Assembly: GCA_018303075.1 (NCBI GenBank)
Contig: JAGVYW010000036.1
Coordinates: 1 to 40,386, forward strand
Length of the DNA: 40,386 nucleotides
Reading direction: 5' to 3'
Source of the DNA: Candidatus Woesearchaeota archaeon
GTDB taxonomy: Archaea; Nanobdellota; Nanobdellia; Woesearchaeales; DSVV01
Numbering within the stretch: the first letter of the stretch is position 1; every line of letters starts with the position of its first letter. The translations under genes were made by a program, and so were the position numbers. Under the pieces are notes generated by a model, which did no database searches, was not told the DNA's origin, and saw only the letters and a program-made list of their open reading frames with translations. Shown here in pieces: positions 28,301 through 39,612 of the stretch.

Positions 28301-31300
28301 TTATTAACATTCAAAAAAGTTATTCAAGTAGAGAACGAAGAGGCAGTATTAAAAAAGCTTACAGAATTTACACAAACTCAAAAATTCAAGAGGAGAGATC
28401 ATCAAAACAGAGATATGTTTCAATTAATAAGTTTATTTCTTGCAGCACAAGGTTCAGATAAGCATTTTTATGATGTTATGTTGAGAGCATTAATCCATGA
28501 AATAGATGGTAGTTTTGAAGATTGGAAATTTTCAAGCCCAGATTATATTGCAACATTAAATGAGATTATTGATATAGAACTTAAAAAACTTCCTGATGAA
28601 CAGCGTGAAGCTTTTGCAAAGATTGATGGAGAATCTAATCTTGAGAAATTAGAAAATGCAGATCAAAGTATTGAAAGTTATACTGCAATTAAAGATAGGG
28701 TTGAAAGGATTAGAAACTGGGAAAGACAAATAATATATCCATTAAATTTAGGAGGAGATTTACATACAATAGAATACGTAACTAATTTCTTTGATTTGTT
28801 TAATATTGGTAATTACCCTGGTTCAACAGCATGTCAAAGCTGTGTTTATGGTAATTCACTTAATGCTGGATTATTAGGATATGTAAATAATGGTGCAATA
28901 ACATCAGTTGCTTTAATGCATCCGAATGGATATGTTGAGACGAGAAGGATAATAAAATTAAGAATCATAGAGCGAGCAGATGGAGAGAAATTACCTGTTA
29001 TTTATGTTGAAGAAAATACACAGTTTGGTTCAAGAGAATTAGAGAAGCTCTATAAAATATTAGAAATTCTCTCAGTAAAGACAGGATTACCAGTTGCATC
29101 TTCTATCAAAAGAACAACTAATGGAGAATCTTTTAAATTATATACATTTAAAGGAACAAGTGAGTGGGAGTATTCTGATACTTATGGAGGAAGATTACAT
29201 CAAACAGAAAAGAAAGTAGAAAGACAAGCACATGCATCAATAGAACCAGTTCCTGAAAAAACAATACAAGAAATAGAGCAAGAAACAGGGCTTAATAAAG
29301 TAGAGCCAAATCTATCAGAGCTAACAAAAATTCAGTTCGACAAACTAGTCCGCAACGGAATCACAATCACATCAAATCCAGACAGTACAAAAACAGTTGA
29401 TGTCCACATCTTAATAGATTTCACAGAAGAACAGCGAAAAGCAATCGATAAAGCAGTAAACGATTACATCGACGATTACGAAGGTTTAGTCGAAAGAATT
29501 AAAGAGTTGTTGACGAGAACAGATGACTTCACTTGTAAAATAGGAAGCTGCAGCGGCAAAGCACAATTACCATCAGCTGCATCAACAACAGCAGAAGTAG
29601 AGCTAGAAGAAGTTGTGATTGGTAGATTAGATAAATACACTCTGCCAGAAACAATCGAGCAAGGTCTTCCAGCCAAAGAAGGTCCTCCTGCTGAGATTAA
29701 ACAATCTAAAAACATGTTTTCCAGATTATTCACAGCAGCAAAATCATTTATAAAGAATAAATTTGTAGATTCATATATTAAATCAAATAGATTAGAGAAA
29801 GTAATCTTTCTTGCAAGTTTAGCATCACCTATCCCATTTTTATCATTGATTCCTGCAGTATATATTGTCCTAAGATATACAAAAAGTAAGACTGAATCTC
29901 CTGCTCAATCCAACATAGAGAGTAACAATGAAAGGCAGCTTCCAACTCCAAATGAAGCAAATTTAGCAGCTGCAGCAGTTGCACCAACAACAACTGCTGC
30001 AGAAGCGCCTTTCTCTGTTTCTTCTGATGAAGAATTTCCTCAAACAATTTCAAGAAGGGATATTCTTAAATTCTTAGGTATTGGCGCAATCACAGCAGCT
30101 GTTCCATTATTACAGAGAACATTTAATTATTTCAAAAGAAAGTCAATATTAAGTGATATTGATGAAGCATATACTTTTATTACAGATGATAAAGCACTTT
30201 CTTCACTTCCATTATACCAGCAAATAAATCTATTTTTAGAACAATTAAAGCAGCAAGGAATTATTACAGAGAATGATAAGGTTAGTATTAGTATCCACAA
30301 TCCTGAAACAGATACAACTTTAGTTAATCATAAATCTGATGATCAGCATTTATCTGGTTCAATAATTAAATTATTTATTATGGCAGCAGTTTTCAATAAA
30401 CTCCAAACAGCTTCTCTTTCAGAAGAAGAAACAGCAGAAGTAAACTTTCATCTCAAGAAAATGATGGAAAACAGCAGCAATCAAAGCGCAGATTACTTAA
30501 TCAATTTCGTTGGAGGATTAGAAGCAGTACAACAATTTATCAAAACAACTGAAATATTTACAGAAACAGAACTTTTAGAATACATTGCAGAATTAGACGG
30601 AAAAACATATAAAAATAAAACTTCAGCAGCAGACTTAACGATAATCCTGCAATTATTATATCAAAATAAACTTATCTCAGAAACTGCATCAGAAAGAATG
30701 CTTGATTTAATTGCAGGCTATAAAACAAGTGTCATCGAAGCGCAAGAATCAATTACAAAAAGAGATAGCGTAACTAAAATTGTAGGTAAAACAGGTCATG
30801 TCAATGGATTGTCAGCAGAAACAGCAATAATTTATTACAAAGATAAAGATGGTGCAATCAAACCATTTATTGTTTCAGTAATGATTGAAAACGATAATAT
30901 GCGTTCAAATGATGAACAAACAGCAGCATGGCGTCAATACACAGATAAAATCATTGCAAAGATTGCATTACTTTCTGTAAATGCTCATGAACAAGATTTA
31001 ACTGGAACTGAAGAAACACAAAAACTAACCAAATACAAATCAATCAAAACTGCATTGGAAAAAGAAGTTGGCAATCTCAATGGAGTATCATCTTGTATAT
31101 CTGGTTCAATTAATTGTATAATTGTATTCACGTTTGAACAGAAAGAATCAGAAACAGAAGAAAATTATCAAGTAAAAGTAAAACAAACAAAAGAATTGAT
31201 TGAATTGACAATAGAAGAAATAATCGCAAAACACGTAGGCATTGATTCAAATGATAAATCAATAACAACAAAAGTTTATTTCAATGAAGATGGTACAATT

Positions 31301-32107
31301 ACAGTTGATGTTGAGCATGATTTTATTGGCGATATTAAACCTGAAGAAGTAACCAAAGAAATTGAAAGTGTTGTTGAAGCAAAGATTGAAGTGAATGTGG
31401 TGAGTGAAAGAGAATTCATTGAGTTAATTTTATCAAAAGAAATAGAACAGCTATCTGAAGATGAAATCAACTTTATCTTAAACCTAGACTTAGATGAATT
31501 AAAAAGAAGATTATCACCAAAAGTATTCAAGAAATTAAGTAAAGTTAATCAGAAGCTAAATAAACTGATAGATAATCAAGAAGAGATTGAATATGGACTT
31601 GGACCAAAAATTGAAGAGCAAGAATATTCAGTAATAACAAAAAAGATTCAATCTTTTCTGACTAACTACCATTCTAATATAGATCAAAGAGCTTATTCAG
31701 AGATTGGAATGGCATTTATTGTTGAGGGAAGTTTAGTTACAGGTTGGTCTCCTGAGAAAAATAGACCTTCTGATTCAGATCTATTTGGAAAAGAACATTT
31801 CTCAGATCTTGATCTGTTAATACTTGTTGATGATGCATATTGGGAATCTATCCCTGATCACATAAAACTTAAGAACCATGTTATAAGAACACTTGCTGTT
31901 GATATTGATAGTGTTTGGCTCATTGATTTTGGATTGAAAGAATTAATATTGCAGTTAGGTCAAATAAAAATTGCTGGCAAAGTCTCAAGAGAGATAAACA
32001 TAGTCTTAATTCCAATGTCTGTTGAATCATTAAAAGTTTCAGATAGACATCTTATTTACCAGAACAAAATTGATGTTAGTCAACTTATTAACAAATACTC
32101 ACCCTAA
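13259..32107 (+). CDS. Giant multidomain protein, C-terminal portion; polymorphic toxin-like carrier
   Basis: 6282 codons from a GTG that overlaps the previous frame by 59 nt. It has no Shine-Dalgarno and no signal peptide of its own, so it is most likely the continuation of the 4150 gene. Order of blocks (residues here): kinase-like fold (about 190-365), linker module (843-954), PP2C phosphatase (about 985-1258), membrane segments (1290-1335), FHA (1360-1455), HAD phosphatase (1950-2210), membrane segments (2580-2660), second linker module (2790-2904), two W-F-x-L-G-D repeats, membrane segments (3100-3420), long alpha-solenoid with clear HEAT repeats (4284-4420), Cys-containing domain (5161-5315), third linker module (5354-5478), membrane segment, Tat-like motif and beta-lactamase-like domain (5598-5910), terminal conserved module (5918-6054), and a nucleotidyltransferase-like C-terminus (about 6120-6282). 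The mix of export signal, membrane segments and enzymatic blocks suggests a surface or secreted effector-delivery protein; this is inference. Confidence 0.85.
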   Translation: MQQATAKLSSAITIASGISEVNVAAEKAADDIIALFEQQGIHIDSAYHNDIRKILQDTAIYHQQKVLDIFSLIQSEIADAAKSFAIEPLITQHVISLEDKIDEALKDDVSKRKERINRKLQRTIAERSQKLADVLPDAVTNYGKNKLRYATIDDIVKELQIDAASAKSLMETVSDTKGLQTSSGLKQNYPGTSINTLLLSVPQFVIEEDSAGNRKLYIMKLTNNYRTKDSYGQALASDSGFREQTASQAIGPLAKQFGVAIPEGRTYELKDGFSVFMSEFKPGIKTLGKTSESRINIDYIISTKGTTAQQQQFKEKIRKQLLAAAIFQRMFEIPDLEIFYDNDGNIYALDFEFLFYNVNVLSLYLDEKSYAERTDADKVELEEAKTKARQLYTEIDSIMNAPNFRLSTLFSEEYYKDAAGVVDKQAYEDDKQEIIASLKKITSSQLKKMLGLDIAFVQTQWNQHSGLIKQDIIEGKDGKRTDVVENYLTEILSASEGFVSTSDSSIEEASKKVEKTKQSIVDLYGSAIKQDLNSFEQEVKADLIERLKRLFENADEAGKDRLNSLIALIEKNKYQFTADREKITDILNDLLSDYDHVITDEQITHVKFVNNHFAALGNIVVLRRKQTNSAKDFFGRNYYKDIAKLGDTQFLSESGEIAKAGLLQKQDNLQKILSDLSFFAERGEMYKRLIDNKFAIQGLFEEYVNSGLNMAVDKKGKLVPIEKLMKPLIDDGSITFDKATGKISQPTVEEIEQEIMNTQAIAVSLQPLQPTAALPKPTIATQRAKQLLPAQSLSQKVAAEMAAIAAATEKVGKLLPFPASKVTQQLALEATRRAETQHEPAISELTPQQLDKLVRDGITIITNLDGTHILKIHILIALTDEQREAINKAVNDYIDDYEGLVERIIEALAGKDDFKCLAGSCEGKAQLPAAAQQIAETGIEEVVINSLEKYTLYEEQTASQKTQPQQRVLFGEDHVATVGKIEGSMSSGKYYGYIDKGTRDYNQDSLAIDEETGLIVVSDGMGGVKDGEKASRFITENIIKYYKQEKTAGKTTEHALNIALANTYIALQDSAQYIGAAGSGATLVVGIVENNELLVRTIGDSRISVHDSAGNIVAISEDQSLIQSYIKEIDADNVALAEKNFLQKNIIEGVIKKEKTEAQLKAPKPRNALHIIGDASKELTPEGRLIGKNRVLQQRVPLKKGYRVLFHSDGVNDYVPSQNFINSKVKAAKTPQEVIDTIVGGITAKGDNIGIFVYEHTAEAKAEKAQSQQPQQPQPQKQGLLDSLGKFIRRQPAAAFAFQLFAFIPGVPAVAGIAAIVGLAGYGVYRLAQRLGSSREPETAKQSESTQTSVQAPTAQQQQIIITVNGIQFTKEQLEQGITIGRAKSNDVVIALNQVSRLHARLFLQDGDFYIIDLGSKNGIKVADNRIPQNQPVKIETINEILFGNQRLNIDYTNEVAALLNKEKIIYDITRRINLLEKDVLYLSDYEDKTIEALGEEIDKLNELILRDITDHNFITAVNIRSELLGRLGPVQMSYETELSKRAIGITRTKLSSSLDSIILGQTELPAAEVVKRSKALEQAVGSSSLTDTEAVLLARNYKDTLVQRGVQSPLGDSIHLDYQISRVDDYRRAVSMDRGYLDYIDELDHIFPETTQKVFLGTDGIEYSSYAYSLSTDNADSNVRTHYISRRTLATRTELEDILAQNRNVEELVNIKEKRIKLYTDMDEIIKYSHDVQVTTGKPFDEALHKRFNEFIMGDAQNRQKVIDLVRSLMKDADLTQQLVLIDFAGRAHVQAFTLREAILWLGKEENWNSISSEQQAQLGNDRVLFTNADVQLHIGVVAHTQPDYLVEANTPWVKNPLAYMQIPGVYEQRYDFQDIVEGYRTVAVDDNSLLTSTPLFAQRTASEQASTILRKLIIADEITKRRQQRAAQFQLHNIRDSERYQKQMEHEYAGVMLDIDGTITLENGMINKEIFDKIYQLLSEGIPVTIVTGRTINGVMPLINLLRNYHENLYGNGKEQQQALEERLQNLFFFVENGAYGIKADSLETIADNKFPTETITHEEVREEIARLSLSFDRIPITDHSVIIVPTDEANLQSYTEAINDYLKQKGYPLHAINTGHTINILPQGVHKGAAVKAMAEFIKQQKGVDITTDDLLKIGDSGQETGNDYEMLSSFGGFSVNKFGKDVLPIVDEQGRQRKGYKTTLWLLNNLKLSKKPAKKIQSSSEDIPTAITAELPAIQFGPGAQEVVEAYYKKLEAIKTALDSNQRDTTIQLLQELQTGVEVDEDGESYSVPTLEQLIQDGTFSGLQLEKAKKIKAAVEQFADAIASNELQFADKIIKKMDESLTVGDYQKASQLYQKILDGHSYGAQSTNKAALGLKEIQSNPLFAAERQATAESKIKYIEGRLIEAKLIEIQNLLDKKDIEAVVQSFQKLQQEPYSVQDFLTADNDVSSRKPIADKISAISSYLTQQIKDAQDATAEKREQAKKQRALGNKQQADRLELQAEEGTPVYSANGRIISTTFGSKALAQLQQIADALTKISKDYAEAKDEQEKARIQELDERINSITNAKAAAQKIKNKSKLLGGMITASSLVALAAGFVSSNPLLIVFGGISSIIFSLSKFFPQPKNRYAKKILNSAIILGALFIGYKSLPVIAEKQKNMPAEASETIVHQQNQQEILTEKDNAIIKIVVKRLESEIKKKNKYNSFSDYIIHLSTKVSKSSVFYIKIGEKQVYFTLNGERITTPKEIEMARELDPSLKIRLGYVDGNNFKGSRSIQDLNGINFRISEEDESQRELQQLALSVLNPQSATDAFIDANFKELSQEQLAELKSLPTAEQRYDYLTKLGWSDDKIAIRAGGAVDSEVDEIAQPQTAELEETEIAQLTEYTIQDETTQQGLPAKEGPPTEQFTQLEQSWFSLGDNYYDSLSVDIDGTARLTLGGETYTIISDDDSPLILDQESLEIARQKAIAETEAARLSEESAKKVSQAAAQQPKQELPLAETSFEQQWFALGDDYQEALQADKDGTAFLIVDGQKYKINYEDETHVEVDVEQSQESAEITSPIAAEKIASAETLILPTAKEIQSAKQTFLQRLRNLAGNRFARAISTVSLLIALVLPAVSMAKPPEPPKKTGIEKVEKSTQKRFEGYELKYLKNVPLDIALQYEEFSYYDIVSLYGKGILPAEANKKRKEYLDRYGISTIATMIVKGISPELAMEYPEELDGFDIIKLNEKAITPELLQEQLKPYAGIEVDDAVNMLLKNIPPEYSFLLSYDKDFSIDELVKLSQAKIPPDYFKTYTDNVGKLFNINEVIEYHKQDYTAEQAAALSSGKALIVFERYVPNITLYAIAFAAIFGIAGFAYGFLRKLYNNRSESGGLTAGIGSAGAIVIGITAAIGVPVLLVTAPSLLLGSGIAYSLSSIIQRRNMRKIFVSNDYTKINTLLSNLNYANLKNNYQDKTYAIAKDNSVPASTRIAAIRSLNKKYQQEKEELLIELYTKNPTTDNEKSQNTNIIRILAEIKTISALQFILNYFFENGYHNSYYEDEIIIKSFNEDSTASLLDFLDKLSSSDKVVNRLELFKQIDYNKFSKKSRALLEQKLTAIYQSYVSQQKEEQALAVLNVLAVINFNGTFSLLMKQIEEAENKQFYQSLLINLLQNLKSSRIKKISADNKEKIKQNMKQILDSKELNNNLFGKSNYGRFIDIIPLITDKLSIDFSYNYYQNLYLQQNNPDVKKQVLNYIAVKYKTKAAREFVEEHLFDIDKSIDKYNNPAAKNYKQSLSLSELKEKSILFIQSDDQLKKQFGITLAEEYFSRVYYKKLTTKASRRAFVKKIIQTIMDNPPEVIYNKDRNYYGSNSAGELYSFISIGYVYNLFGSPDYLKTLLKSYSSSKNPKTRAFVAVLTDRSNEDNKEFLLQMLEQETDETVVPIILQKLQRFIVDSTIKVKIYEMITTKTTAIQEKFFQSFNEDQLIEYLTDYLPKDNKETQRVFYSAAVQRLDTNNKEVIPSLKIYAEVQAKLFTVSSEVDNIILTALFKNLLFTGADASFKIDEKLFLQPKDIQILAIRYLLRFEPQQLSNALSIETVEIEKIIEQTTSEELLFYYKLLLVKRLSINPLPEQTQYDILIKQLLDALKSNNKEFAYESAVLLSKIDIGDLAAIIDILIQYNKPEDQKYVISKISRITNHNYNDFLLSIIKDKNSRARAEAVSAVFFDQDALDKLVAILRAETDVKIKRHLFSIISLRVEESRKGGETLNLKSFIDAIIDNLVFVKEYIEQTSADYIQNAILQYRALLRADLIRKLDDEDIKTRIAAILFLRTTIVQEDDLTEIINALLKKIEDKSSEVKITAAQALGIIAENIPDKSKLEPAILPLITALGDKDESVRNRAVQALVNIGEPAILPLIAALSDEDANVRLGAVQVLIIIIQTKYKRGIISEIWKLISSDISDDERLTLSKELAKLDAKYLSIELRINIKLARYLKNHPENFKRLLNHTFREQINELAYHLSREQTVHPTEHRLEEDEKTNLFDLLFSKDDISKEKAIFDEFFKNNPQDYSVDVESLTELLSYMNLDEISQMIKLMRDDPKLTVDEIFTKLEIAVQQKHSAMNAADRFRLNQRLKWLIQNSFIIESQLSTINDMLSSDSSVIISNEDLIKFLKQIDKTKSLEDLLDISKKSGISLENILQFKMDTISILAREELIISILQNIAKVEESFRDTLYNIALQNFGFLSIESRRRVYMNLLFNQNTDNAYITNAISQILTGNQIKIKNEYLNKFFLEESNLLRDYSTIVDLFSTIPQEQTIRADYLKSNKELFSGLRSIYSRKKFKQQKGDDEFNNRLLTVEGEIAIKQSTIEQIPHLFYEHLLRNTFNTELDKYDTDSIDYFRSIVSRVKIAKLKNDLRTVFLVWNIKTHTERSKIFISLLTYLKNKYALVEDGEAKSNEIIIELTKRLSELEQVLDSHIKATNNDYKDSDGKLLAENAQLLGLSTIVLNNLAQKKEIEQSSIDKILEIRGKLRSVDLLLTFKKVIQVENEEAVLKKLTEFTQTQKFKRRDHQNRDMFQLISLFLAAQGSDKHFYDVMLRALIHEIDGSFEDWKFSSPDYIATLNEIIDIELKKLPDEQREAFAKIDGESNLEKLENADQSIESYTAIKDRVERIRNWERQIIYPLNLGGDLHTIEYVTNFFDLFNIGNYPGSTACQSCVYGNSLNAGLLGYVNNGAITSVALMHPNGYVETRRIIKLRIIERADGEKLPVIYVEENTQFGSRELEKLYKILEILSVKTGLPVASSIKRTTNGESFKLYTFKGTSEWEYSDTYGGRLHQTEKKVERQAHASIEPVPEKTIQEIEQETGLNKVEPNLSELTKIQFDKLVRNGITITSNPDSTKTVDVHILIDFTEEQRKAIDKAVNDYIDDYEGLVERIKELLTRTDDFTCKIGSCSGKAQLPSAASTTAEVELEEVVIGRLDKYTLPETIEQGLPAKEGPPAEIKQSKNMFSRLFTAAKSFIKNKFVDSYIKSNRLEKVIFLASLASPIPFLSLIPAVYIVLRYTKSKTESPAQSNIESNNERQLPTPNEANLAAAAVAPTTTAAEAPFSVSSDEEFPQTISRRDILKFLGIGAITAAVPLLQRTFNYFKRKSILSDIDEAYTFITDDKALSSLPLYQQINLFLEQLKQQGIITENDKVSISIHNPETDTTLVNHKSDDQHLSGSIIKLFIMAAVFNKLQTASLSEEETAEVNFHLKKMMENSSNQSADYLINFVGGLEAVQQFIKTTEIFTETELLEYIAELDGKTYKNKTSAADLTIILQLLYQNKLISETASERMLDLIAGYKTSVIEAQESITKRDSVTKIVGKTGHVNGLSAETAIIYYKDKDGAIKPFIVSVMIENDNMRSNDEQTAAWRQYTDKIIAKIALLSVNAHEQDLTGTEETQKLTKYKSIKTALEKEVGNLNGVSSCISGSINCIIVFTFEQKESETEENYQVKVKQTKELIELTIEEIIAKHVGIDSNDKSITTKVYFNEDGTITVDVEHDFIGDIKPEEVTKEIESVVEAKIEVNVVSEREFIELILSKEIEQLSEDEINFILNLDLDELKRRLSPKVFKKLSKVNQKLNKLIDNQEEIEYGLGPKIEEQEYSVITKKIQSFLTNYHSNIDQRAYSEIGMAFIVEGSLVTGWSPEKNRPSDSDLFGKEHFSDLDLLILVDDAYWESIPDHIKLKNHVIRTLAVDIDSVWLIDFGLKELILQLGQIKIAGKVSREINIVLIPMSVESLKVSDRHLIYQNKIDVSQLINKYSP
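13830..14360 (+). other. Kinase-like domain within the giant protein
   Basis: Strand pattern K-L-Y-I-M-K-L (possible ATP-binding lysine), a following helix, a hinge-like F-S-V-F-M-S-E-F, then D-L-E-I-F-Y-D-N-D-G-N-I-Y-A-L-D-F-E (about residues 338-355), resembling catalytic and metal-binding loops of atypical (HipA-like or aminoglycoside-kinase-like) kinases. The canonical H-R-D is absent, so activity is uncertain. Confidence 0.35.
15787..16122 (+). repeat. Junction module copy A1 inside the giant gene
   Basis: Encodes L-D-K-L-V-R-D-G-I-T-I ... A-V-N-D-Y-I-D-D-Y-E-G-L-V-E-R-I ... C-L-A-G-S-C-E-G-K-A-Q-L-P, ending near L-E-K-Y-T-L. A close relative in both protein and DNA lies at 29320-29650. 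Part of the segment uses many C-ending codons (CTC, GAC, ATC, GTC), unlike the A/T-ending codons around it. It separates the kinase-like part from the PP2C part. Confidence 0.8.
16205..17031 (+). other. PP2C (PPM) Ser/Thr phosphatase domain within the giant protein
   Basis: Motifs in order: R-D-Y-N-Q-D-S (metal-binding D at residue 1004), S-D-G-M-G-G (1018-1023, D1019), G-S-G-A-T-L-V-V, I-G-D-S-R-I, E-D-Q-S-L, L-F-H-S-D-G-V-N-D and G-D-N-I-G-I. The metal-binding aspartates and glycines are all present, so it should be active. It is followed by hydrophobic segments (17125-17250) and an FHA domain, a combination common in bacterial signalling proteins. Confidence 0.85.
17335..17620 (+). other. 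FHA (phosphothreonine-binding) domain within the giant protein
   Basis: Shows I-T-I-G-R-A-K-S-N-D-V-V-I (G1381, R1382), V-S-R-L-H-A-R-L (S1396, H1399) and I-I-D-L-G-S-K-N-G-I, the complete FHA signature. FHA domains bind phosphothreonine peptides; with the adjacent PP2C and the upstream kinase-like fold it suggests a built-in phospho-switch, which is inference. Confidence 0.88.
19110..19888 (+). other. HAD (Cof/type IIB-like) phosphatase domain within the giant protein
   Basis: L-D-I-D-G-T-I-T (nucleophile D1956, D1958), V-T-G-R, H-K-G-A-A-V as the lysine motif and G-D-S-G-Q-E-T-G-N-D-Y (D2159) as motif IV. Size and motif spacing fit Cof-like or sugar-phosphate phosphatases. All catalytic residues look intact. 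Confidence 0.8.
21001..21225 (+). other. Membrane-spanning cluster in the giant protein
   Basis: About three hydrophobic stretches (residues about 2582-2655) separated by a short basic/polar linker (F-F-P-Q-P-K-N-R-Y-A-K-K), consistent with transmembrane helices. Further hydrophobic stretches lie at 22558-22620, 23268-23510 and 29790-29880. Confidence 0.6.
21630..21970 (+). repeat. Junction module B plus Q-G-L-P-A-K-E-G-P-P linker
   Basis: Encodes E-L-Q-Q-L-A-L-S-V-L-N ... then Y-T-I-Q-D-E-T-T-Q-Q-G-L-P-A-K-E-G-P-P. The first part has C-rich codons (CTC GCC CTC TCA GTC CTA) unlike its AT-rich neighbours. The linker DNA at 21941-21963 is identical over 23 nt to 29660-29682. Two W-F-x-L-G-D-(N/D)-Y repeats follow at 21983-22110 and 22261-22375. 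Confidence 0.7.
21983..22375 (+). repeat. Two W-F-x-L-G-D-type repeats in the giant protein
   Basis: Two related units: S-W-F-S-L-G-D-N-Y-Y-D-S-L ... D-G-T-A-R-L ... G-G-E-T-Y-T-I and Q-W-F-A-L-G-D-D-Y-Q-E-A-L ... D-G-T-A-F-L ... D-G-Q-K-Y-K-I. About 45 residues each; a small repeated module of unknown function. Confidence 0.7.
23530..28700 (+). other. Alpha-solenoid with HEAT repeats in the giant protein
   Basis: About 1,700 residues of predicted helices. Clear HEAT/PBS-type repeats occur at 26110-26515: L-I-T-A-L-G-D-K-D-E-S-V-R-N-R-A-V-Q-A-L and the near-identical L-I-A-A-L-S-D-E-D-A-N-V-R-L-G-A-V-Q-V-L, with E-P-A-I-L-P-L repeated at the DNA level. This would be a protein-binding scaffold. 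Confidence 0.75.
28740..29200 (+). other. Cys-containing domain (C-Q-S-C) in the giant protein, function unknown
   Basis: Mixed alpha/beta segment with Y-P-G-S-T-A-C-Q-S-C-V-Y-G-N-S-L-N, I-T-S-V-A-L-M-H-P-N-G-Y-V-E-T-R-R-I-I-K-L-R-I and P-V-I-Y-V-E-E-N. I recall similar C-Q-S / R-x-I-x-R-L / Y-x-E patterns in large repeat proteins but cannot name the family. Its position right after the solenoid suggests a functional head domain. Confidence 0.35.
29317..29690 (+). repeat. Junction module copy A2 plus Q-G-L-P-A-K-E-G-P-P linker
   Basis: Relative of the 15787-16122 module: F-D-K-L-V-R-N-G-I-T-I, then A-V-N-D-Y-I-D-D-Y-E-G-L-V-E-R-I, C-K-I-G-S-C-S-G-K-A-Q-L-P and L-D-K-Y-T-L, followed by the 23-nt linker (29660-29682) shared with 21941-21963. 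DNA similarity is high, with stretches such as GTCCACATCTTAAT and ACGAAGGTTTAGTCGAAAG nearly unchanged. Confidence 0.8.
30046..30985 (+). other. Class A beta-lactamase / DD-peptidase-like domain preceded by a Tat-like motif
   Basis: An internal S-R-R-D-I-L-K-F-L-G-I-G followed by A-I-T-A-A-V-P-L-L looks like a twin-arginine signal core. After it, S-G-S-I-I-K-L-F supplies the S-x-x-K box (S5701, K5704), S-N-Q-S-A-D stands where S-D-N is expected, and V-G-K-T-G-H gives the K-T-G box (5844-5846). Order and spacing match class A serine beta-lactamases. Substrate is unknown; archaea generally lack murein, so it may act on a partner's or neighbour's cell wall, or be an esterase or peptidase. Confidence 0.7.
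31010..31418 (+). repeat. Terminal conserved module C (copy 1, in the giant gene)
   Basis: Encodes S-C-I-S-G-S-I-N-C-I-I-V-F-T-F-E-Q-K-E-S, then V-K-Q-T-K-E-L-I-E-L-T-I-E-E-I, Y-F-N-E-D-G-T-I-T-V-D-V-E-H-D-F-I and E-A-K-I-E-V-N-V-V-S. Homology with the downstream copies stops right after N-V-V-S, where the variable C-terminus begins. 31275-31307 is identical over 33 nt to 33273-33305. Confidence 0.85.
31620..32104 (+). other. Nucleotidyltransferase-like C-terminal effector domain of the giant protein
   Basis: Carries the Pol-beta nucleotidyltransferase pattern: E-G-S-L-V-T-G-W-S (G6157, S6158) followed by S-D-L-D-L-L-I (D6183, D6185), with E-I-N-I-V-L-I (E6245) as candidate third acidic residue. 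It lies directly after module C and a short helical spacer, the position of a toxin domain in polymorphic toxins. Target unknown. Confidence 0.55.
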
Positions 32108-32173
32108 CTAAGAATATCAAGTGCAGCAAACTTCGTGTCATTGAACACACTTTTTTAGTAAATCTGTATTATT
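32108..32173 (+). terminator. Region between giant gene and convergent TIM-barrel gene; possible T-tract terminator
   Basis: Only 66 nt separate the two stop codons. A run ACACTTTTTTAG near 32145-32156 could end the giant transcript by the usual archaeal U-tract mechanism. No strong hairpin seen. Confidence 0.35.
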
Positions 32174-33073
32174 CTATGAAAAAAAGTCTTGCAGACGTTT
32201 TAAATCATCTATTTCTTGCTCTTTAAATTCAGGCGCATATTCTAATACTAAATCTCCATTATATCCATTTGACTTCAAAACAGAAAGTAATCCTTGAACA
32301 TTCATTTCTCCTTCTCTATATGGTAAGTCTTTTCTGTTACCTGATTTATTGCTTATTTGAACAACAAATAATTTCTGAAATATTCTTTCTACAAGATCAA
32401 AGAGGTCTGAATCTTGATTAAGATGTGAAACATCTAGTGTTAAGCCAACTTGAGGGGATGAAATATCCATAATCTGTTCTGGATAATTTAACCAACGATC
32501 ATCAGTTACATCTAAATTTTCAAAAGCAAGTCTAACGCCTAAACAGGGAAAAACTTTATTTTTTTCAAAATATTCATTAATAACGGAAACAGTTCCTTTA
32601 GCTGGGTGTAATGTAATAGTATCAACCCCATAATTACCTCTTATATAAGCAATTACTCCAAGAAATTCATCTTTTTGCACATCTATATAAGGCGCATGAA
32701 CTAATCTTACATCAATACCATCTTCTTTAAAATATTTTCGTAAGACTTTGTGTTCTATTTGATATAATTCTCTTTCTCTAGGTAAAAGTAAGTGAACAGA
32801 TTCTCCTTTAAGATCATTAAATGTTTTATAATAATCGAGATCTAAACCAATTCTTCTATTAGCCAAAACTTTACTTTTTCTCCTTAAAGAAGGATTTGTT
32901 GCTATTGGATAAATAACATTACCTTTGCCATTAAATATAACGGCAATATCACTATTATTACCATCTACTGAGAAATTATATTTCACAAAATTAATGGTAT
33001 TATCTTGTGAGTAAATAATTGTCTCTAATGCATTAGGTAATTTTCTATTTTGTATGCAATAACTACTGTCCAT
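32174..33073 (-). CDS. Xylose isomerase-like TIM-barrel protein (sugar isomerase / AP endonuclease fold)
   Basis: 299 aa from ATG 33073, which lies about 26 nt from a TATA box (33095-33103), so a leaderless start. The frame remains open to 33184 but the upstream part runs antisense into a degraded module copy and is not expected to be coding. Features: H-P-A-K-G-T-V in the centre, R-L-A-F-E-N-L with a candidate metal-binding Glu, L-T-L-D-V-S-H-L with a metal-ligand-type Asp/His, and a terminal G-Y-N-G-D-L-V-L-E-Y-A, the order seen in the sugar isomerase/epimerase and endonuclease IV superfamily. The first about 80 residues are beta-rich and not recognised. It ends tail-to-tail with the giant gene's nucleotidyltransferase-like C-terminus. 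By position it would be the matching immunity gene, but no reaction linking it to such a toxin is known to me. Confidence 0.65.
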   Translation of the reverse strand: MDSSYCIQNRKLPNALETIIYSQDNTINFVKYNFSVDGNNSDIAVIFNGKGNVIYPIATNPSLRRKSKVLANRRIGLDLDYYKTFNDLKGESVHLLLPRERELYQIEHKVLRKYFKEDGIDVRLVHAPYIDVQKDEFLGVIAYIRGNYGVDTITLHPAKGTVSVINEYFEKNKVFPCLGVRLAFENLDVTDDRWLNYPEQIMDISSPQVGLTLDVSHLNQDSDLFDLVERIFQKLFVVQISNKSGNRKDLPYREGEMNVQGLLSVLKSNGYNGDLVLEYAPEFKEQEIDDLKRLQDFFS

Positions 33074-33094
33074 AAGCTCAGTATTCGTTAAGGG

Positions 33095-33103: not shown

Positions 33104-33117
33104 CTGGTCATTATCGG

Positions 33118-33408
33118 GTAGTAATATTTGAATTGAAAAGAAAGAATCAGAAACAAAAGAGATTATCAAGTAAGAGTAAAACAAACAAAAGAATTGATTG
33201 AATTAACAATTGAAGAAATCATAGCAAGACACGTAGGCATTGATCCGAGTGACAAATCAATAACAACAAAAATTTATTTCAATGAAGATGGTACAATTAC
33301 AGTTGTGTTGAGCATGATTTGATTGGCGAGATTAAACCAGATGAAGTAACCAAAGAGATTGAAGAAGTTATTGAAGCAAAGATTGAAGTTAACGTGGTTA
33401 GTGATGAT
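33118..33408 (+). repeat. Degraded copy 2 of module C
   Basis: Aligns with 31120-31412 along its length with a long exact match (33273-33305), but at least two single-base deletions break the frame: one near 33150 and one near 33306 (ACAGTTGTGTTGAGC where the giant gene has ACAGTTGATGTTGAGC). It has no promoter or start codon of its own. The frame is restored before E-A-K-I-E-V-N-V-V-S and then continues into a different C-terminal tail. It looks like a homologous leader for a silent cassette. Confidence 0.8.
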
Positions 33409-34395
33409 GATACAAAAGAAATTCTTAAACAACTTCTATCTGAAAAAGAGAGTGAAATTGATGAAAATCTTAAACATATTATTACACCATATACTAAGAA
33501 GAAGGATATCCTTCATTTCATTGCTGACTATAAAACATTAGAAGAAGAAGCAAAGCAAATAAATAATAATATATATAGAAGAATCAGATTGAAAAGAATC
33601 ATGCTTGATAGTAAATTTGATGATCTAATTATAAATCCTTTCGTTGAAGTAAGTCATGATGATAGAGAAATAGCATCTAAGTTTCTCCCGAATCATAAAC
33701 TTTCAGGATTAGAAACACTTGTAAAAATAATCGCAAATGGTAAACTATCATCTTCAAAGGCTCTAGGAATACTTCCACTTGAAGAAAGAGTAAAGCGTGG
33801 GCAAGAAGATTCTATTTTTATTTCTGCAGGTGCGCCTTATAGTCACCTAAAAATTATGAGAGAATCAGGAGACATGAATTTTAATAGACATAATCTTCCA
33901 CTAATTGTTTTTACAAATGATCTTTACGAAAGATCTTCTTTTAAAGCAACACCAAGAGATAGTTTTTCTTATGATGATGAGATGGAAATAAGAGAATATA
34001 CCTTAAGTCATGAAGATCTAGAGACATATATCAAACAAATGGTTGCAGATAACAAAGTTTTAGCTGAACAAAAACAATTTAGAATTAGATCAGATCGTAT
34101 GAGTGAGTATGGTACTTTTTTCCCAGAAATAACAATTGATGGAGAAATCTCACTAAATGAAATGAAAATGATTATACTTACAAGAGATGACAAAGCAGCA
34201 TTATTAAAAAATTTGTTTGAGAGTAATAATTTCAGGAATTTAATTGGTAAGAAAGTAAAGTCCATTACTGAGTTAGAAAATATCTTAACCGAAAAATTTG
34301 GTTTTAAACTAGTAATTCCAGATGACGAATTATCAGTTGACCAAATGTATTGGAGAATAATAGGATTTGATATACCAGAATACGCTGAAATATAA
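33319..34395 (+). pseudogene. Silent C-terminal cassette: ADP-ribosyltransferase-like toxin domain
   Basis: The open frame from TTG 33319 (I-G-E-I-K-P-D-E-V-T-K-E) is the last third of module C, then a new 330-residue tail. There is no plausible promoter, RBS or signal peptide, so it is probably not expressed in place. The tail has features of DarT-like or toxin-type ADP-ribosyltransferases: L-S-G-L-E-T-L-V-K-I-I-A-N-G-K-L-S resembles the NAD-binding H-x-T/N-L-x-x-I-L-x-x-G-x-L region, followed by S-I-F-I-S-A-G-A-P-Y and a late F-F-P-E-I-T-I-D-G-E-I-S with the candidate catalytic Glu. Its stop is 2 nt from the stop of a convergent ADP-ribosylglycohydrolase gene, which would reverse such a modification. 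I class it as a stored toxin cassette; a free-standing gene with an unseen start is the alternative. Confidence 0.6.
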
Positions 34396-34397
34396 AT

Positions 34398-35345
34398 CTA
34401 ACTATCAATTATATGCTTATAAAATTGTTTCCCAATTAATCTTATATTTTGATTATTCTCCAAATGTTTTACCAAATATTCTGGTATCACATTAACTCCA
34501 TTATAAACACCGCTTAATTGTCCAGCTACAAATGCAATAGTATCAGTATCTCCTCCTAAGTTAACAGCACGAGATACAGTATGTAAATAATTTTCGGGTG
34601 ATTTTAAAAAGCAGAATAAAGCTGCAGATAATACATCAATACAACTCCCATTTGTTGATAATGTATAATTCTCTTCACCAGTTGATATGATTCTCTTTAT
34701 AGCTATTAAGTTATTAATGAAGTCAGAATGTTTTTTACTTTTTGGATTCATTATAAATCTATCCATGATTGAAGTATCAATCAGATTATCATGTGAATAG
34801 ACATTTTGTAATAAAGAGTAATAAATAAATGAGAAACGTACTGCATCATTATTATTATGTGTCATTCTAATTGCATCTTCCACTATTGTATCAAAATGAG
34901 GGTCGCCATACAATTGAAATAAAAAAGCCAGTGGACTTGTACGTGTTAAACAGCCACTTCCTAAAGAATCATCTCCTGAATGTTTATAAGAAACTTTTTT
35001 ATCTAATTTATTTAATGCTGACCATGTTACAGAACCAACACCACGTAATTCATCTGATTTATGCATTAAAAGGTATTCCTGAACAAAGTTATTAACATCA
35101 AATCTATTATAATTTACAATCGCTTTTGTCGTTGCAAGCATTAATTGGGTATCATCAGTATATTGTCCAGGTAATAAACCACGAATTCTCGTTCTTTCAT
35201 CGGCTTTTAGAAAATAGTGTATAGAGCCATATCTATTATTAATTTCTTCTTTTGATAAACCTTCAACAGGCATACCTAATGCATCACCAATAGCTCCGCC
35301 TAAGAAAAAACCGATTATTTTTTCTAAATTACGAGTCATTTCCAT
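34398..35345 (-). CDS. ADP-ribosylglycohydrolase (DraG/ARH family) 1
   Basis: 315 aa from ATG 35345, about 29 nt from the centre of a TATA box (35370-35378); an upstream TTG (35354) and an inner ATG (35339) are alternatives. It has the family's magnesium-site motifs: G-G-A-I-G-D-A-L-G (16-24), Y-T-D-D-T-Q (62-67) and the C-terminal L-G-G-D-T-D-T-I-A. The family removes ADP-ribose from protein side chains or other acceptors. All metal-binding aspartates are present, so it should be active. It sits tail-to-tail, 2 nt from the ADP-ribosyltransferase-like cassette, exactly as an immunity gene would. It appears to be singly transcribed and leaderless. Confidence 0.9.
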   Translation of the reverse strand: MEMTRNLEKIIGFFLGGAIGDALGMPVEGLSKEEINNRYGSIHYFLKADERTRIRGLLPGQYTDDTQLMLATTKAIVNYNRFDVNNFVQEYLLMHKSDELRGVGSVTWSALNKLDKKVSYKHSGDDSLGSGCLTRTSPLAFLFQLYGDPHFDTIVEDAIRMTHNNNDAVRFSFIYYSLLQNVYSHDNLIDTSIMDRFIMNPKSKKHSDFINNLIAIKRIISTGEENYTLSTNGSCIDVLSAALFCFLKSPENYLHTVSRAVNLGGDTDTIAFVAGQLSGVYNGVNVIPEYLVKHLENNQNIRLIGKQFYKHIIDS

Positions 35346-35369
35346 AATAAACAAAGTGATTGTTGCGAG

Positions 35370-35378
35370 TATATAAAT
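35370..35378 (-). promoter_or_regulatory. TATA box of ADP-ribosylglycohydrolase gene 1
   Basis: ATTTATATA on the minus strand, centre about 29 nt before ATG 35345; nearly the same element as at 33095-33103. Confidence 0.55.
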
Positions 35379-35429
35379 CTTTCGGAAATGTTGTCCCTAT
35401 GTGATGAATAATCTATGTATATCATATAA

Positions 35430-35727
35430 ATTGAAGAGCTCTACCAATTATCAGAAACAAGATTCATTGCAGATGAAGATGTATTGGATTTAAGAAAACA
35501 AAGCAAGAGAGCAGAAGACAAATATTATAATACACAAAAACTGCGAATAGTCAAAGAGCGAATGAGTTCATTAATAGAAAGAACCTCAAATTATAACAAA
35601 ATCAAAGATATTCTGAAACCATACGAATTAAAGTTGGTATCAACTCAATTTGCACCAATTAAACAAAGTCTTTGATCCAAATAATGCAGATTATGGTTCA
35701 AAAAGAAAAGTATATGATGGAACATAA
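35430..35727 (+). pseudogene. Remnant of a C-terminal cassette
   Basis: An open stretch with no start (E-E-L-Y-Q-L-S-E-T-R-F-I-A-D-E-D-V-L ... L-V-S-T-Q-F-A-P-I-K-Q) stops at 35675. One frame change later the reading continues as K-V-F-D-P-N-N-A-D-Y-G-S-K-R-K and ends at 35727, overlapping the 3' end of the next convergent gene. It is helical and charged, lacks promoter and RBS, and repeats the tail-to-tail arrangement of the other cassettes. I do not recognise the domain. Confidence 0.4.
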
Positions 35728-36125
35728 ATTAAATGTCTTGCCGTAACTAGATCGATTATATTTCTTTCAAATAGAAAAATTGAGTTTTCATAAATAAAAT
35801 CTGACTTATTCTTCCTTTGGTTTTTTGAAGGTCTTTTTTCAGGTTTTCTATCAAACATTCTTAAATCTATTTCACCATTAACTAATTTTAGTCCTTGCCA
35901 GATTGCTTCAACAGAATGTGAAAATAAGTTAGGAAAACCAGGAACAGGAATGTGGTAATTCTCTTGATAATGAAATGGATTTAGAAAAGCATATCCTTTT
36001 TTTGATGCTGCATTGTATAAAACTATTTTTCCATCTCCTCTATTCCTCAATTGTCTAGCTTCTTCTTGAGTAATAAACATTGCAAGATTGCTTGAAGGTT
36101 TAATATCCTTAAAATTTCCACTCAT
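35691..36125 (-). CDS. Small protein resembling DUF6939 / NADAR-like proteins
   Basis: 144 aa from ATG 36125, with a TATA box at 36157-36164. Recognisable features are I-P-V-P-G-F-P-N-L-F, S-H-S-V-E-A-I-W-Q-G-L-K-L-V (60s-70s), a basic R-K-P-E-K-R-P-S-K segment and a closing Y-V-P-S-Y-T-F-L. From memory this order matches DUF6939 proteins of actinobacteria, and the S-V-E-x-x-W-Q-G-L-K helix resembles the T-V-E-H-x-x-Q-A-x-K helix of NADAR enzymes, which remove ADP-ribose from guanine in nucleic acid. Its place between two ADP-ribosylglycohydrolases and beside an ADP-ribosyltransferase-like cassette supports a role in reversing ADP-ribosylation, but this is inference. It ends inside the preceding toxin remnant, as an immunity gene would. 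Confidence 0.5.
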   Translation of the reverse strand: MSGNFKDIKPSSNLAMFITQEEARQLRNRGDGKIVLYNAASKKGYAFLNPFHYQENYHIPVPGFPNLFSHSVEAIWQGLKLVNGEIDLRMFDRKPEKRPSKNQRKNKSDFIYENSIFLFERNIIDLVTARHLIYVPSYTFLFEP

Positions 36126-36156
36126 ATTATCACTTTTTATTAGGAGAGATAGACTA

Positions 36157-36164
36157 TTTATAAA
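36157..36164 (-). promoter_or_regulatory. TATA box of the DUF6939/NADAR-like gene
   Basis: TTTATAAA, about 35 nt before ATG 36125, implying a leader of only a few bases. A second TTTATAA lies about 13 nt further upstream (36173-36179). Confidence 0.5.
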
Positions 36165-36249
36165 TTTTATTATTTATAAGTGACAAACAGAACTGCGTGA
36201 AGAAAACAAACTGTCTTAAAAAACGAATGTGTTTAAATATAAGTTAATT

Positions 36250-36418
36250 CTTAAACATTTCAATAAAGATTCTGTGAATTGGATGTTTTGTTAGAAAAAC
36301 AAGGAATTTTGCAAAAAGAAGAAAATTAATTATTAATCAATTGCATATTACACAAACAAATCATAATTTGATAGAACATAAAGCAGGAACAACTCCTGCA
36401 TGCTTATTTGTAAAGTAG
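36250..36418 (+). pseudogene. Possible short remnant of another C-terminal cassette
   Basis: Two short open pieces in different frames: E-L-D-V-L-L-E-K-Q-G-I-L-Q-K-E-E-N, then I-N-Q-L-H-I-T-Q-T-N-H-N-L-I-E-H-K-A-G-T followed by T-P-A-C-L-F-V-K, stopping at 36418. It overlaps the 3' end of the next convergent gene by about 15 nt, repeating the layout of the neighbouring units. Too short to assign; it could be chance. Confidence 0.25.
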
Positions 36419-37414
36419 AGCTGATATATTTTCCATTCCTTGTAATGCAACTTTATATAATTTTTGTGTAATTTCATTTAAATATTGATAATTCTCAAGA
36501 CCAACTTTAAATCGCATTGGTATGTTATTTATTCCCAAATATGCTCCTGACATGAAACCAGTAATTGCTGCTATACTATCTGAATCATAAGAATTATTAA
36601 CAGCAGTTAATACCGCTTTTTCAAAATCATCTCTATGTTTAAGAAAGCAATAAAGAGCTGTTTGGACTGTATCAAGCATATATCCTGTTGTTTGTAGATG
36701 AGAAAACGCAATACTTTCACTTTCACCAATAATCTCTTTAAGTTTAATTATTCTCTTTTTCATAGTGTCTATTTCATTGTCTTCAAAGCAAAGAGCAGAA
36801 AGCCCATCAAGAAAATCTTCATTACTTTTATTTGAAAAATAATCTGGTTCTTTTATAAGTGTTCTAATTACATATAAAACAACTTTCGTACCATCTATTG
36901 CTTTAGGATCAGCATGCGTGATTATTGGAGTATAAAAAATATAATCAGAAAGTTCATTCAATGATGCATATAAACTATACAATGCTACTGGAGCTACACG
37001 TGTTGCTGGACCATTTCCAGCACCATCTTTAATCCCACTATCTTTCCAAGAAACACCTCTAGATAATTGTTTTAATGAGTTTCTTGTTGTTCTTCCCAAT
37101 AATCGTAATTGTCCCTCTTTATAAGCACTAGTGAATCTGGATGCAATGTCTGAAAAGTCAACGCAACATTTCTCAACAATTGATTCTATTGTTAAAATTG
37201 TTAGTTGCGTATCATCAGTATAATAACCTCGTCTTAAACCATTTTTTTTTGCTAATGAACCTGGGAAAGGCAACATAAATTGTGTTACTTGTCTATATTC
37301 ATCTGTCCTATCTATAGGCATTATTCCCTCAACAGGCATTCCTAACGCATCACCTATTGCTCCTCCTATGATACAACCTAAGAATTTTGAGTTCAATTGG
37401 TTATTTTCAATCAT
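36404..37414 (-). CDS. ADP-ribosylglycohydrolase (DraG/ARH family) 2
   Basis: 336 aa from ATG 37414, about 29 nt from the TATA box at 37439-37446; the frame stays open to a TTG at 37438 that lies within the promoter spacing and is unlikely. Motifs are I-G-G-A-I-G-D-A-L-G (16-25) and Y-Y-T-D-D-T-Q (64-70), as in the first copy. The C-terminal site reads N-N-S-Y-D-S-D-S-I-A rather than the usual G-G-D-T-D-T-I-A: both aspartates survive but the glycines do not. The two proteins are clearly divergent paralogues rather than a recent duplication, so they probably serve different substrates or toxins. Confidence 0.88.
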   Translation of the reverse strand: MIENNQLNSKFLGCIIGGAIGDALGMPVEGIMPIDRTDEYRQVTQFMLPFPGSLAKKNGLRRGYYTDDTQLTILTIESIVEKCCVDFSDIASRFTSAYKEGQLRLLGRTTRNSLKQLSRGVSWKDSGIKDGAGNGPATRVAPVALYSLYASLNELSDYIFYTPIITHADPKAIDGTKVVLYVIRTLIKEPDYFSNKSNEDFLDGLSALCFEDNEIDTMKKRIIKLKEIIGESESIAFSHLQTTGYMLDTVQTALYCFLKHRDDFEKAVLTAVNNSYDSDSIAAITGFMSGAYLGINNIPMRFKVGLENYQYLNEITQKLYKVALQGMENISALLYK

Positions 37415-37438
37415 AATTACAAAAAGAATAATTATCAA

Positions 37439-37446
37439 TTTATAAA
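37439..37446 (-). promoter_or_regulatory. TATA box of ADP-ribosylglycohydrolase gene 2
   Basis: TTTATAAA, centre about 29 nt before ATG 37414; it decides that start. Confidence 0.6.
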
Positions 37447-37477
37447 TTTTGTCTTTTGTAAGTAATAAAAAATAGTC

Positions 37478-37729
37478 ATTGTCCTAAGATATGGATTATT
37501 TACAAAAAGTCAGACTGAATCTCCTGCTCAATCCAACATAGAGAGTAACATGGAGAATTGCATTTCTTTCTGAAACAAAGAATACTCATCATAGGCACGC
37601 ACTTGGAACAATAATCTCTGAAGAAAACACAGAAATAGGCAAAGCTATGTATATGATTCTTTCTTCGATAAACCTATTGGCAAATGGATAGATAGAATTA
37701 ATTTATTAGGTGTTGGAAATCCTATCTAA
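37478..37729 (+). pseudogene. Silent cassette remnant joined to a copy of a giant-gene linker
   Basis: 37512-37550 is identical over 39 nt to 29889-29927 of the giant gene (linker T-E-S-P-A-Q-S-N-I-E-S-N), and 37478-37492 matches 29864-29878 exactly, with an 8-nt insertion between. Directly after the shared part a different tail follows in a shifted frame: W-R-I-A-F-L-S-E-T-K-N-T-H-H-R-H-A-L-G-T, then after another frame change F-F-D-K-P-I-G-K-W-I-D-R-I-N-L-L-G-V-G-N, stopping at 37729. The tail overlaps the 3' end of the next convergent gene by 8 nt. No promoter or start is present. The near-perfect linker points to a recent exchange. Confidence 0.65.
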
Positions 37730-38192
37730 TAACATCTTTTGCTATTTTTAGCCCAGTTCGATTTCTTTGATATTCTGTCGATGTAATTTTATATAGAAAT
37801 TTAACAGGGTCAAAATCAACAAATTCAAAAGATTGTAATAGATGTTTATACATTATTGCAAGTTTTACAGCTAAATTAATTTGATATTCAATTTTCATAT
37901 CTTGATTATCCTTACTATAACCAGAAAAGTCAATGGATTCTAATTCTTTTTTAAGAATTGACAGATGTTGATATCTATTAACTTCAGTATTATTTAATCT
38001 TTCTTTATGTTTCTGATAACTCTGAATTAATTTATCAATAAACAAAATGTCATTGCTTACATATCCCTCCATCCATGAAAATGACATGTGTATAGTAAAG
38101 AATTCAGAGAGTTGGTCAATACAAATAGATTTCAATCTTTCGTAAATTTTTCTTTCATCATAAATAATGTTATCAATTGTTACCTTTAACAT
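37722..38192 (-). CDS. Hypothetical protein, candidate immunity gene
   Basis: 156 aa from ATG 38192, chosen because AGGTGAT, a good Shine-Dalgarno, lies 4 nt upstream; a GTG at 38201 is the alternative. Charged, helical and with no signal peptide. Notable bits are the start M-L-K-V-T-I-D-N-I-I-Y-D-E-R-K, a Trp/Met-rich F-S-W-M-E-G-Y and the end T-E-Y-Q-R-N-R-T-G-L-K-I-A-K. I do not recognise the family. It overlaps the end of the Dbr1-like gene by 20 nt on the same strand, so the two form an operon. Its 3' end overlaps the toxin-tail remnant at 37478-37729, suggesting it was that tail's immunity gene; this rests on position only. Confidence 0.65.
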   Translation of the reverse strand: MLKVTIDNIIYDERKIYERLKSICIDQLSEFFTIHMSFSWMEGYVSNDILFIDKLIQSYQKHKERLNNTEVNRYQHLSILKKELESIDFSGYSKDNQDMKIEYQINLAVKLAIMYKHLLQSFEFVDFDPVKFLYKITSTEYQRNRTGLKIAKDVIR

Positions 38193-38921
38193 TAGTATCA
38201 CCTAAAATCTCAATAATCTCAAACCATTTCTTCATTGATGGAACATCTGTAGGAGATTTCATCATTGTTTGCAATCCAATTACTTTTATGTTGTGATATT
38301 CTATCGAAATAGAAATATCATGATGACCAAAAAAATGATAGCGTGGTGATTTTATATCAAGGATTCTTCTAAATTCTTCAACAACATTTACACTACCAAG
38401 TAATTTAAGAGTTTCTGTAAGTGCAGGAGCTTGATGCGTAAGCAAAATATCTAATCGTTGCTGATAATTTATAACAGTAGCTACATCTTCTAAAGTAAAA
38501 TTTCTCCTTCTATTGCCTTTTAATCGTGGGTCATCTTTTTGAAGAGTATATCTTTGTTGAGAATAAACTCCACCAACAACAGCAACAGAAATACCTAATA
38601 CATTATGTATCCTCCCATTAGATAAATAATATAAATTTTCAGCAATTTGTAGGTTGCTTTCAAATCTTCCAATTAAATCAAAATCTTCATGATTACCATG
38701 AATAAAATAAGTTGGAATAGGAACTTTTTGTTTTCCGGAATAAAAAGCAGCAAATTCATTTACCCAACCTCTTTTTTTTGTTGCTTTATCCAAATTTTCA
38801 TCAGAAATAAACGCTCCAAAATCACCTACCTGTAAAATTACATCATGTGTTTATCTATCAAAGAAGCATACATCATATCTAAATGCCCCTCAATATCTCC
38901 AACTACAGCAATACGCACCAT
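38173..38921 (-). pseudogene. Dbr1-like metallophosphoesterase, frame broken near its N-terminus
   Basis: ATG 38921 opens M-V-R-I-A-V-V-G-D-I-E-G-H-L-D-M-M-Y and stops at 38838 after a frame change. The next frame supplies D-V-I-L-Q-V-G-D-F-G-A-F and continues uninterrupted to 38173. Joined, it is a calcineurin-like phosphoesterase: G-D-I-E-G-H, G-D-F, F-I-H-G-N-H-E, L-L-T-H-Q-A-P and F-F-G-H-H-D. The layout F-A-A-F-Y-S-G-K-Q-K-V-P-I-P-T-Y-F-I-H-G followed by a short N-L-Y-Y-L-S-N-G segment closely resembles the RNA lariat-debranching enzyme Dbr1, which cuts 2'-5' phosphodiesters. One base separates it from an intact gene of about 240 codons, so sequencing error or recent inactivation are both possible. 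A TATA box precedes it; it overlaps the 156-aa gene downstream. Confidence 0.65.
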
Positions 38922-38943
38922 TATCTGAAGGTATCACACCACC

Positions 38944-38955
38944 TATTTAAATATT
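38944..38955 (-). promoter_or_regulatory. TATA box of the Dbr1-like gene and its downstream partner
   Basis: AATATTTAAATA, centre about 29 nt before ATG 38921, the same spacing as the other immunity-type genes. It would drive the two-gene unit. Confidence 0.55.
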
Positions 38956-38989
38956 ACTAGTTAGTTATGACAAATGAGCCTTAACATAG

Positions 38990-39087
38990 CTACAATCATA
39001 TTTACAATTGAGAAGAAGGTATCAGAAACAGAACAACAATATCAAGAGAGAGTTAAACAAACAAAAGAATTGATGAGAGAGATTTAA
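38990..39087 (+). repeat. Degraded copy 3 of module C
   Basis: Reads A-T-I-I-F-T-I-E-K-K-V-S-E-T-E-Q-Q-Y-Q-E, then R-V-K-Q-T-K-E-L-M, matching I-I-V-F-T-F-E-Q-K-E-S-E-T-E-E-N-Y-Q of the giant protein (about 31105-31205), including a 20-nt exact match ending in AAAGAATTGAT. Homology is lost where transposase-like sequence begins (about 39076), so an insertion may have cut off the cassette that once followed. Confidence 0.65.
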
Positions 39088-39612
39088 GAAAAATTGTCCG
39101 TGAAAATTTCAAGAAAAAAGACAAAACAAAAATCAAGCAAAAGATTGCCAGTGCCAGAGAAGAGCTTTAGCAAAATAATCTTGAGAAAGTTTCTTTGTCT
39201 GATCCAGAATGTCGCATGATGCAGAGAATATCAAATTTGCTCTCGACAACGAAATTAATCTCTATGTGCCTTTTTACTTTCGTGAACGATTGTGGATGAA
39301 AGAAAAAAAGAACACTAACGAAAGCAGAAAAATTTATTCTTTGAGAACAATTCCAGTTGAACCAGTATACGGACACATGAAACAAAACCTAGGATTTAGA
39401 GAATTTTTGCTTAGAGGACTTGAAAAAGTAAAAATTGAGATGAATTTGATATCAATTGCTCACAATTTAGGGAAAATACATCGAATGATGAGAAAAAATA
39501 AAGAAATATGGTATGGGGAAAAGTTTCTCATATTTTACTTTATTCAGAAATTTCTGTGTTTACGAAATTTAATTGTGGGACGGCTTCGCCTGTTATACGT
39601 AGAGAGCCTTTG
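39076..39612 (+). mobile_element. IS1182-like transposase remnant
   Basis: Frame 1 reads R-D-L-R-K-I-V-R-E-N-F-K-K-K ... A-S-A-R-E-E-L, a stop at 39168, then L-E-K-V-S-L-S-D-P-E-C-R-M-M, resembling the S-x-T-D-P-D/E-x-x-M region of IS1182-family DDE transposases. A frame change (with probable internal loss) leads to D-A-E-N-I-K-F-A-L-D-N-E-I-N-L-Y-V-P and the C-terminal signature S-L-R-T-I-P-V-E-P-V-Y-G-H-M-K-Q, L-R-G-L-E-K-V-K-I-E-M-N, A-H-N-L-G-K-I. The N-terminal half is absent, so it is dead. A GGCTTCGCC hairpin (39581-39589) lies near the 3' end; no clear terminal inverted repeats could be identified. Confidence 0.7.

Follow-up and report, generated by a model that had tools for sequence, protein, structure and literature searches.

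We examined a 40,386-nt window of DNA that is the entire contig JAGVYW010000036.1 of a Candidatus Woesearchaeota archaeon, whose genome comprises 1.24 Mb in 44 contigs (labelled G000; G001, G002, G003, G004, G005, G161 and similar labels denote relatives). We consider it likely, from analysis of the sequence, that the window encodes an archaeal polymorphic toxin system with antisense immunity genes that carry their own promoters. In the proposed arrangement a very large secreted carrier assembled from reusable modules would end in an exchangeable C-terminal effector, at present a tail resembling a nucleotidyltransferase (NTase) of the DNA polymerase beta (Pol-beta) type. The cognate immunity gene, encoding a TIM barrel, would lie tail to tail with the effector under its own archaeal promoter, and so would be expressible independently of the carrier. 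Former or alternative tips would be kept downstream as cassettes of carrier module, tail and antisense immunity gene, and a crossover within a 99-nt module segment (33306-33404) would fuse one of them, tail 2, to the carrier in frame. The giant protein would deliver its tips into neighbouring cells, and the antisense genes would neutralise them, likely by removing the modification that the tip writes. We infer tip toxicity, delivery, natural swapping and, from genetic linkage, neutralisation by the partner.

Displaced carrier modules and an intact spare tail

An earlier sequence-only reading of this DNA had proposed that the last module of the carrier, taken to span 31010-31418, recurs twice downstream. 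Both copies were confirmed, but the duplicated stretch begins at ∼31117, just past a CISGSINC signature. The module at 31117-31407 recurs at 33118-33404 with ∼90% DNA identity (89.8%, E 6e-97, for 31134-31407 against 33133-33404), and 31125-31200 matches 38999-39074 at 81.6%. A second carrier linker, reported near 37478-37550, was found at 37498-37550 with 96% identity to 29875-29927. Substitutions between the module copies are biased to silent changes (dN/dS 0.26, binomial p 0.005), and it is therefore probable that most of their divergence arose while both were coding. DNA repeats and Pfam matches thereby bear out the original observation of a carrier followed by repeats and convergent genes.

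The cassettes with carrier homology lie downstream of the carrier. The proposal that such copies are fused to other tails holds for 33306-34395, which is intact, whereas 35430-35675, 37478-37690 and 38991-39074 are decayed remnants. Upstream of tail 2 the frame is interrupted by a one-base shift near 33305; across 33306-33404 the codon phases of the carrier and of the tail 2 frame coincide exactly, and a crossover in this in-register segment would therefore yield an in-frame carrier-tail 2 fusion. The frame runs for 358 aa, far above the maximum of 189 aa (mean 95) in 2,000 Markov shuffles of the region, and is thus not expected by chance. It ends 2 nt from the stop of the convergent ADP-ribosylglycohydrolase 1 (ADPRGH1) gene. 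Because of this partner we suspect tail 2 of being an ADP-ribosyltransferase (ART), as in pairings of R-S-E type ARTs with ADPRGH. Tail 2 itself gave no family match, nor any pairwise match to the ART-like proteins associated with DUF6939 that are described below.

Turnover of tails and partners in related genomes

Relatives of the locus are present in the Candidatus Woesearchaeota metagenome-assembled genomes (MAGs) JAGVYH010000014.1 and JABHXF010000031.1 and in the unclassified archaeon MAG DeMMO1_7. Giant carriers in six genomes from four genera end in differing tails shortly past a common cysteine signature, C-x(1,3)-GS-x(0,2)-C, which occurs 10 times in the giants (0.01 expected) and precedes the terminal tail at short distance in 6/6. 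Each giant also has a convergent gene within 93 nt, and this gene changes with the tail. The G001 giant carries the NTase tail with a TIM barrel partner. G002, a congener of G001, shares this carrier module but has an unknown tail and a convergent phosphoesterase 4 nt away. In G003 the N-terminal part of the carrier is orthologous (E 1e-108) and the gene immediately before it is similar, yet the tail is an unknown one and a convergent 149-aa gene overlaps it by 11 nt. In G004 and G005 a TM-HEAT tail faces the TIM barrel; G005 holds a module-NTase-module unit where its congener G004 holds one module, so that in G005 a module and the TM-HEAT tail sit between NTase and TIM barrel, and G004 lacks the NTase and keeps the TIM barrel. 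The idea that the single G004 module is a chimera of the G005 pair was rejected (p = 0.3 within the repeat).

These comparisons, which the sequence-only reading had proposed as a check, revealed the same type of carrier with differing tails and convergent partners, and shared modules joined to different tails. None of the outcomes which that reading had named as refuting it was seen, though no recombinant was directly observed either. Polymorphic toxin systems have a conserved carrier with a variable C-terminal domain and an adjacent gene exchanged with the tip, and both features are seen here. Silent cassettes with carrier homology would equally fit a gene-conversion system for antigenic or receptor variation, in which non-toxic surface domains are swapped and the antisense genes act in regulation or are passively carried along; the ends of G002, G003 and G004/G005, where no toxic fold is recognisable, would suit it too. 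We think this improbable, since specific tails go with specific enzymes (ADPRGH, TIM barrel, phosphoesterase) as partners, and the NTase and TIM barrel co-occur on unrelated carriers.

That co-occurrence was measured across 288 genomes of the order. The close form of the NTase is present in 4/288 genomes and the full-length TIM barrel in 5/288, with 4 shared (hypergeometric P 1.8e-8). The two lie tail to tail at a distance of 1-66 nt in G000 (stop-to-stop gap +66 nt), G001 and G161, and in G161 the NTase is borne on an unrelated 528-aa carrier with a signal-like N-terminus. The arrangement is not that of a type II/IV toxin-antitoxin locus, with a free-standing small toxin gene co-directional with its antitoxin, since the NTase is fused to the carrier and its partner is convergent. 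The recurrence of NTase and TIM barrel in four genomes, and the signalling-type PP2C, FHA and HAD domains of the giant, might instead mark a conserved regulatory pair within a fixed multi-domain machine that is no weapon. We judge this very unlikely, given the different tails and partners of other family members and the genome G006, of the same genus, in which none of the searched parts was present.

A second NTase branch consists of standalone genes that adjoin calcineurin-like phosphoesterases in G007, G050 and G090, so that one toxin-like fold has partners of two different folds, both of phosphoesterase type. The standalone pairs (L036, L037, L021) are candidate toxin-antitoxin pairs in their own right.

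Convergent partners as candidate erasers

The sequence-only reading had listed five convergent genes. Pfam confirmed the TIM barrel, DUF6939 and both ADPRGHs (ADP_ribosyl_GH domain, E 2e-54 and 2e-59), but a calcineurin-like phosphoesterase had been missed. For each of the TIM barrel, ADPRGH1, DUF6939 and ADPRGH2 genes, a TTTATATA or TTTATAAAT box lies ∼24-40 nt ahead of an ATG, and a similar TATA box precedes the convergent partner in G001, G002, G003, G004, G005 and G161. The convergent genes do not behave as housekeeping genes: in addition to the sparse NTase and TIM barrel, ADPRGH1 and ADPRGH2 are the only ADP-ribosylglycohydrolases of the genome and 0/10 other genomes of the family carry one.

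DUF6939 lies 15 nt, stop to stop, from a tail remnant and here lacks the C-terminal ∼40 positions of its family. It had been labelled NADAR-like, a label that the sequence does not support, as we found no sequence link to NADAR or to any solved structure and no PDB match. In other Woesearchaeota, DUF6939 is tail to tail with an ART-motif gene (L082; motifs identified by eye, with no Pfam support) or adjoins a macrodomain (L084; Pfam E 5e-11). Homologous unknown proteins with 27% identity, at L083:2173-3186 and L084:1-825, are convergent to DUF6939 or the macrodomain and are candidate ART-like toxins. The presence of ADPRGHs, and of DUF6939 beside an ART-motif gene or macrodomain, suggests that the partners reverse the modification made by the tip, and they are probably "erasers" in this sense; by extension, we infer that the AP-endonuclease-like TIM barrel would remove a nucleotide. 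It is conceivable, though we lean against it, that these loci form a DPANN-specific class in which the immunity genes are without exception antisense, self-promoted erasers of the group added by the cognate tip (TIM barrel or calcineurin-like phosphodiesterase against NTase tips; ADPRGH, DUF6939 or macrodomain against ART tips), with the C-x-GS-x-C module as the swap joint.

The decayed tail remnants, the transposase remnant and the frame-broken phosphoesterase are also what one would expect of a degenerating accessory island, where toxin-antitoxin genes, NAD-related genes and transposon debris have gathered beside a giant gene rich in repeats and the modules were copied passively by segmental duplication, and the standalone NTases beside phosphoesterases agree with this. 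Such an origin has little probability in our view, considering the intact in-register tail 2, the tight tail-to-tail packing, the repeated turnover of carrier, tail and partner in relatives and the TATA box at every tested partner.

Several observations weigh against a polymorphic toxin system. Identification of the NTase rests on its hGS...SDxD motif and a moderate model (pLDDT, the predicted local distance difference test, 77); Foldseek of that model returned no significant PDB match, although several of the weak ones were Rel and DNA polymerase beta. In G004 and G005 the TIM barrel adjoins a tail without the look of a toxin. A search for homologs of tail 2 drew a blank in the order (288 genomes), the class (264 genomes), viral contigs, plasmids and phages; its AlphaFold single-sequence model (no alignment) was unusable, and its assignment as an ART is guessed from the partner gene. 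Orphan cassettes downstream of the carrier were not found with the giants of the other genomes, and the chimera sought in G004 was rejected as stated. The carrier had been read as a single protein of ∼9,300 aa; it is in fact two frames of 3055 and 6282 aa overlapping at 13259-13317, where the break is either a sequencing error or a real frameshift. The orthologous giant of G003 has a similar break with a 35-nt overlap (L093 16744-16778). Evidence for secretion is a signal-like N-terminus set against a frame break and a Pfam scan of both frames that revealed no known trafficking domain, delivery machinery or pre-toxin domain.

Comparison with known systems

We know of no archaeal system of this form; to our knowledge the arrangement is well known in bacteria and rarely reported in archaea. 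Carriers with recombining 3' cassettes have been described (Zhang et al. 2012, PMC3482391), and the same survey reports that most archaeal lineages generally lack polymorphic toxins, an exception being Methanosarcina acetivorans, which has Rhs-type toxins with cassettes. Because of this precedent, the claim in the sequence-only reading that no such archaeal system had been described needs trimming. The present locus shares with those systems a large, putatively secreted carrier, a variable C-terminal domain, an adjacent, presumably cognate gene and downstream cassettes with carrier homology, as well as an ADP-ribosylglycohydrolase, the family of Imm-ARG, then the sole enzymatic immunity protein known (PMC3482391). 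It differs in its DPANN host, in the absence of Rhs, filamentous-haemagglutinin, VENN and HINT domains from the Pfam scan of both giant frames, and in partners that are convergent with their own promoters; NTase/TIM barrel and NTase/phosphoesterase pairs are not named in the parts of the survey considered here. Orphan modules of CdiA/CdiI contact-dependent inhibition (CDI) systems likewise form downstream arrays of tip and immunity gene with carrier homology and transposase debris, but they share the orientation of cdiBAI (PMC4927057), whereas all partners here are convergent and CdiB and CdiA domains are lacking. Tre1/Tri1 and DarT/DarG-NADAR (PMC11543638 for NADAR) pair an ADP-ribosylation toxin with an eraser; the resemblance lies in eraser-type partners (ADPRGH, macrodomain), whereas the ART identity of tail 2 is only suspected and DUF6939 could not be linked to NADAR by sequence. 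What distinguishes this case from known systems is its DPANN host, the kinds of partner and their convergent orientation.

The weapons of DPANN archaea are almost unknown. If correct, our interpretation would supply a testable mechanism for attack on, or policing of, hosts and kin by small archaea that probably depend on a host, name candidate toxin/immunity pairs (NTase/TIM barrel and tail 2/ADPRGH) and offer a function for giant genes in Woesearchaeota.

Features of the window and its surroundings

Table 1. Positions of the carrier, tails, partners and remnants in the 40,386-nt window.
Feature	Positions	Strand	Remarks
Carrier, N-terminal part	4150-13317	+	3055 aa; hydrophobic signal-peptide-like N-terminus; orthologous to G003 giant (24-32% identity)
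Carrier, C-terminal part	13259-32107	+	6282 aa, different frame; PP2C, FHA, HAD hydrolase, HEAT repeats, beta-lactamase-like domain, then terminal tail
C-x-GS-C module, copy 1	15677-16132	+	
C-x-GS-C module, copy 2	29210-29659	+	
CISGSINC signature	31094-31117	+	Directly upstream of terminal module; displaced copies start just past it
Terminal carrier module	31117-31408	+	Proposed recombination homology
Active tail	31409-32107	+	Pol-beta-type NTase-like, GS...SDxD; presumed toxin tip
TIM barrel, xylose-isomerase/AP-endonuclease-like	32174-33073	-	Presumed immunity gene; Pfam AP_endonuc_2; likely ATG 33073; TATA box TTTATATA ∼24 nt upstream
Displaced terminal-module copy	33118-33404	+	Frame broken ∼33305; part downstream in register
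Tail 2, displaced, intact	33306-34395	+	No detectable family; ART suspected
ADPRGH1	34398-35342	-	Presumed immunity gene; Pfam; own TATA box
Tail remnant	35430-35675	+	81 codons, no start
DUF6939 gene	35691-36125	-	C-terminally truncated; own TATA box
ADPRGH2	36404-37413	-	Pfam; own TATA box
Linker copy with decayed tail	37478-37690	+	Linker part 37498-37550
Unknown 156-aa gene	37722-38192	-	Convergent to decayed tail
Calcineurin-like phosphoesterase	38173-38850	-	Pfam; 5' end in another frame
Third module copy	38991-39074	+	Cut by transposase remnant
DDE transposase remnant	39203-39613	+	Pfam DDE_Tnp_1_6

Upstream of the giant, the gene at 2809-4014 encodes a membrane-anchored protein with an Ig-like end, and its similar counterpart precedes the G003 giant. 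Inside the giant, a Tat-like motif, SRRDILKFLG, lies ahead of the beta-lactamase domain. Elsewhere in the genome (L022:1228-2583, G000:C35) we noted a separate secreted protein with a Tat-like signal, part of which matches the beta-lactamase-like region of the giant and whose C-terminal half is, by eye, lytic transglycosylase-like.
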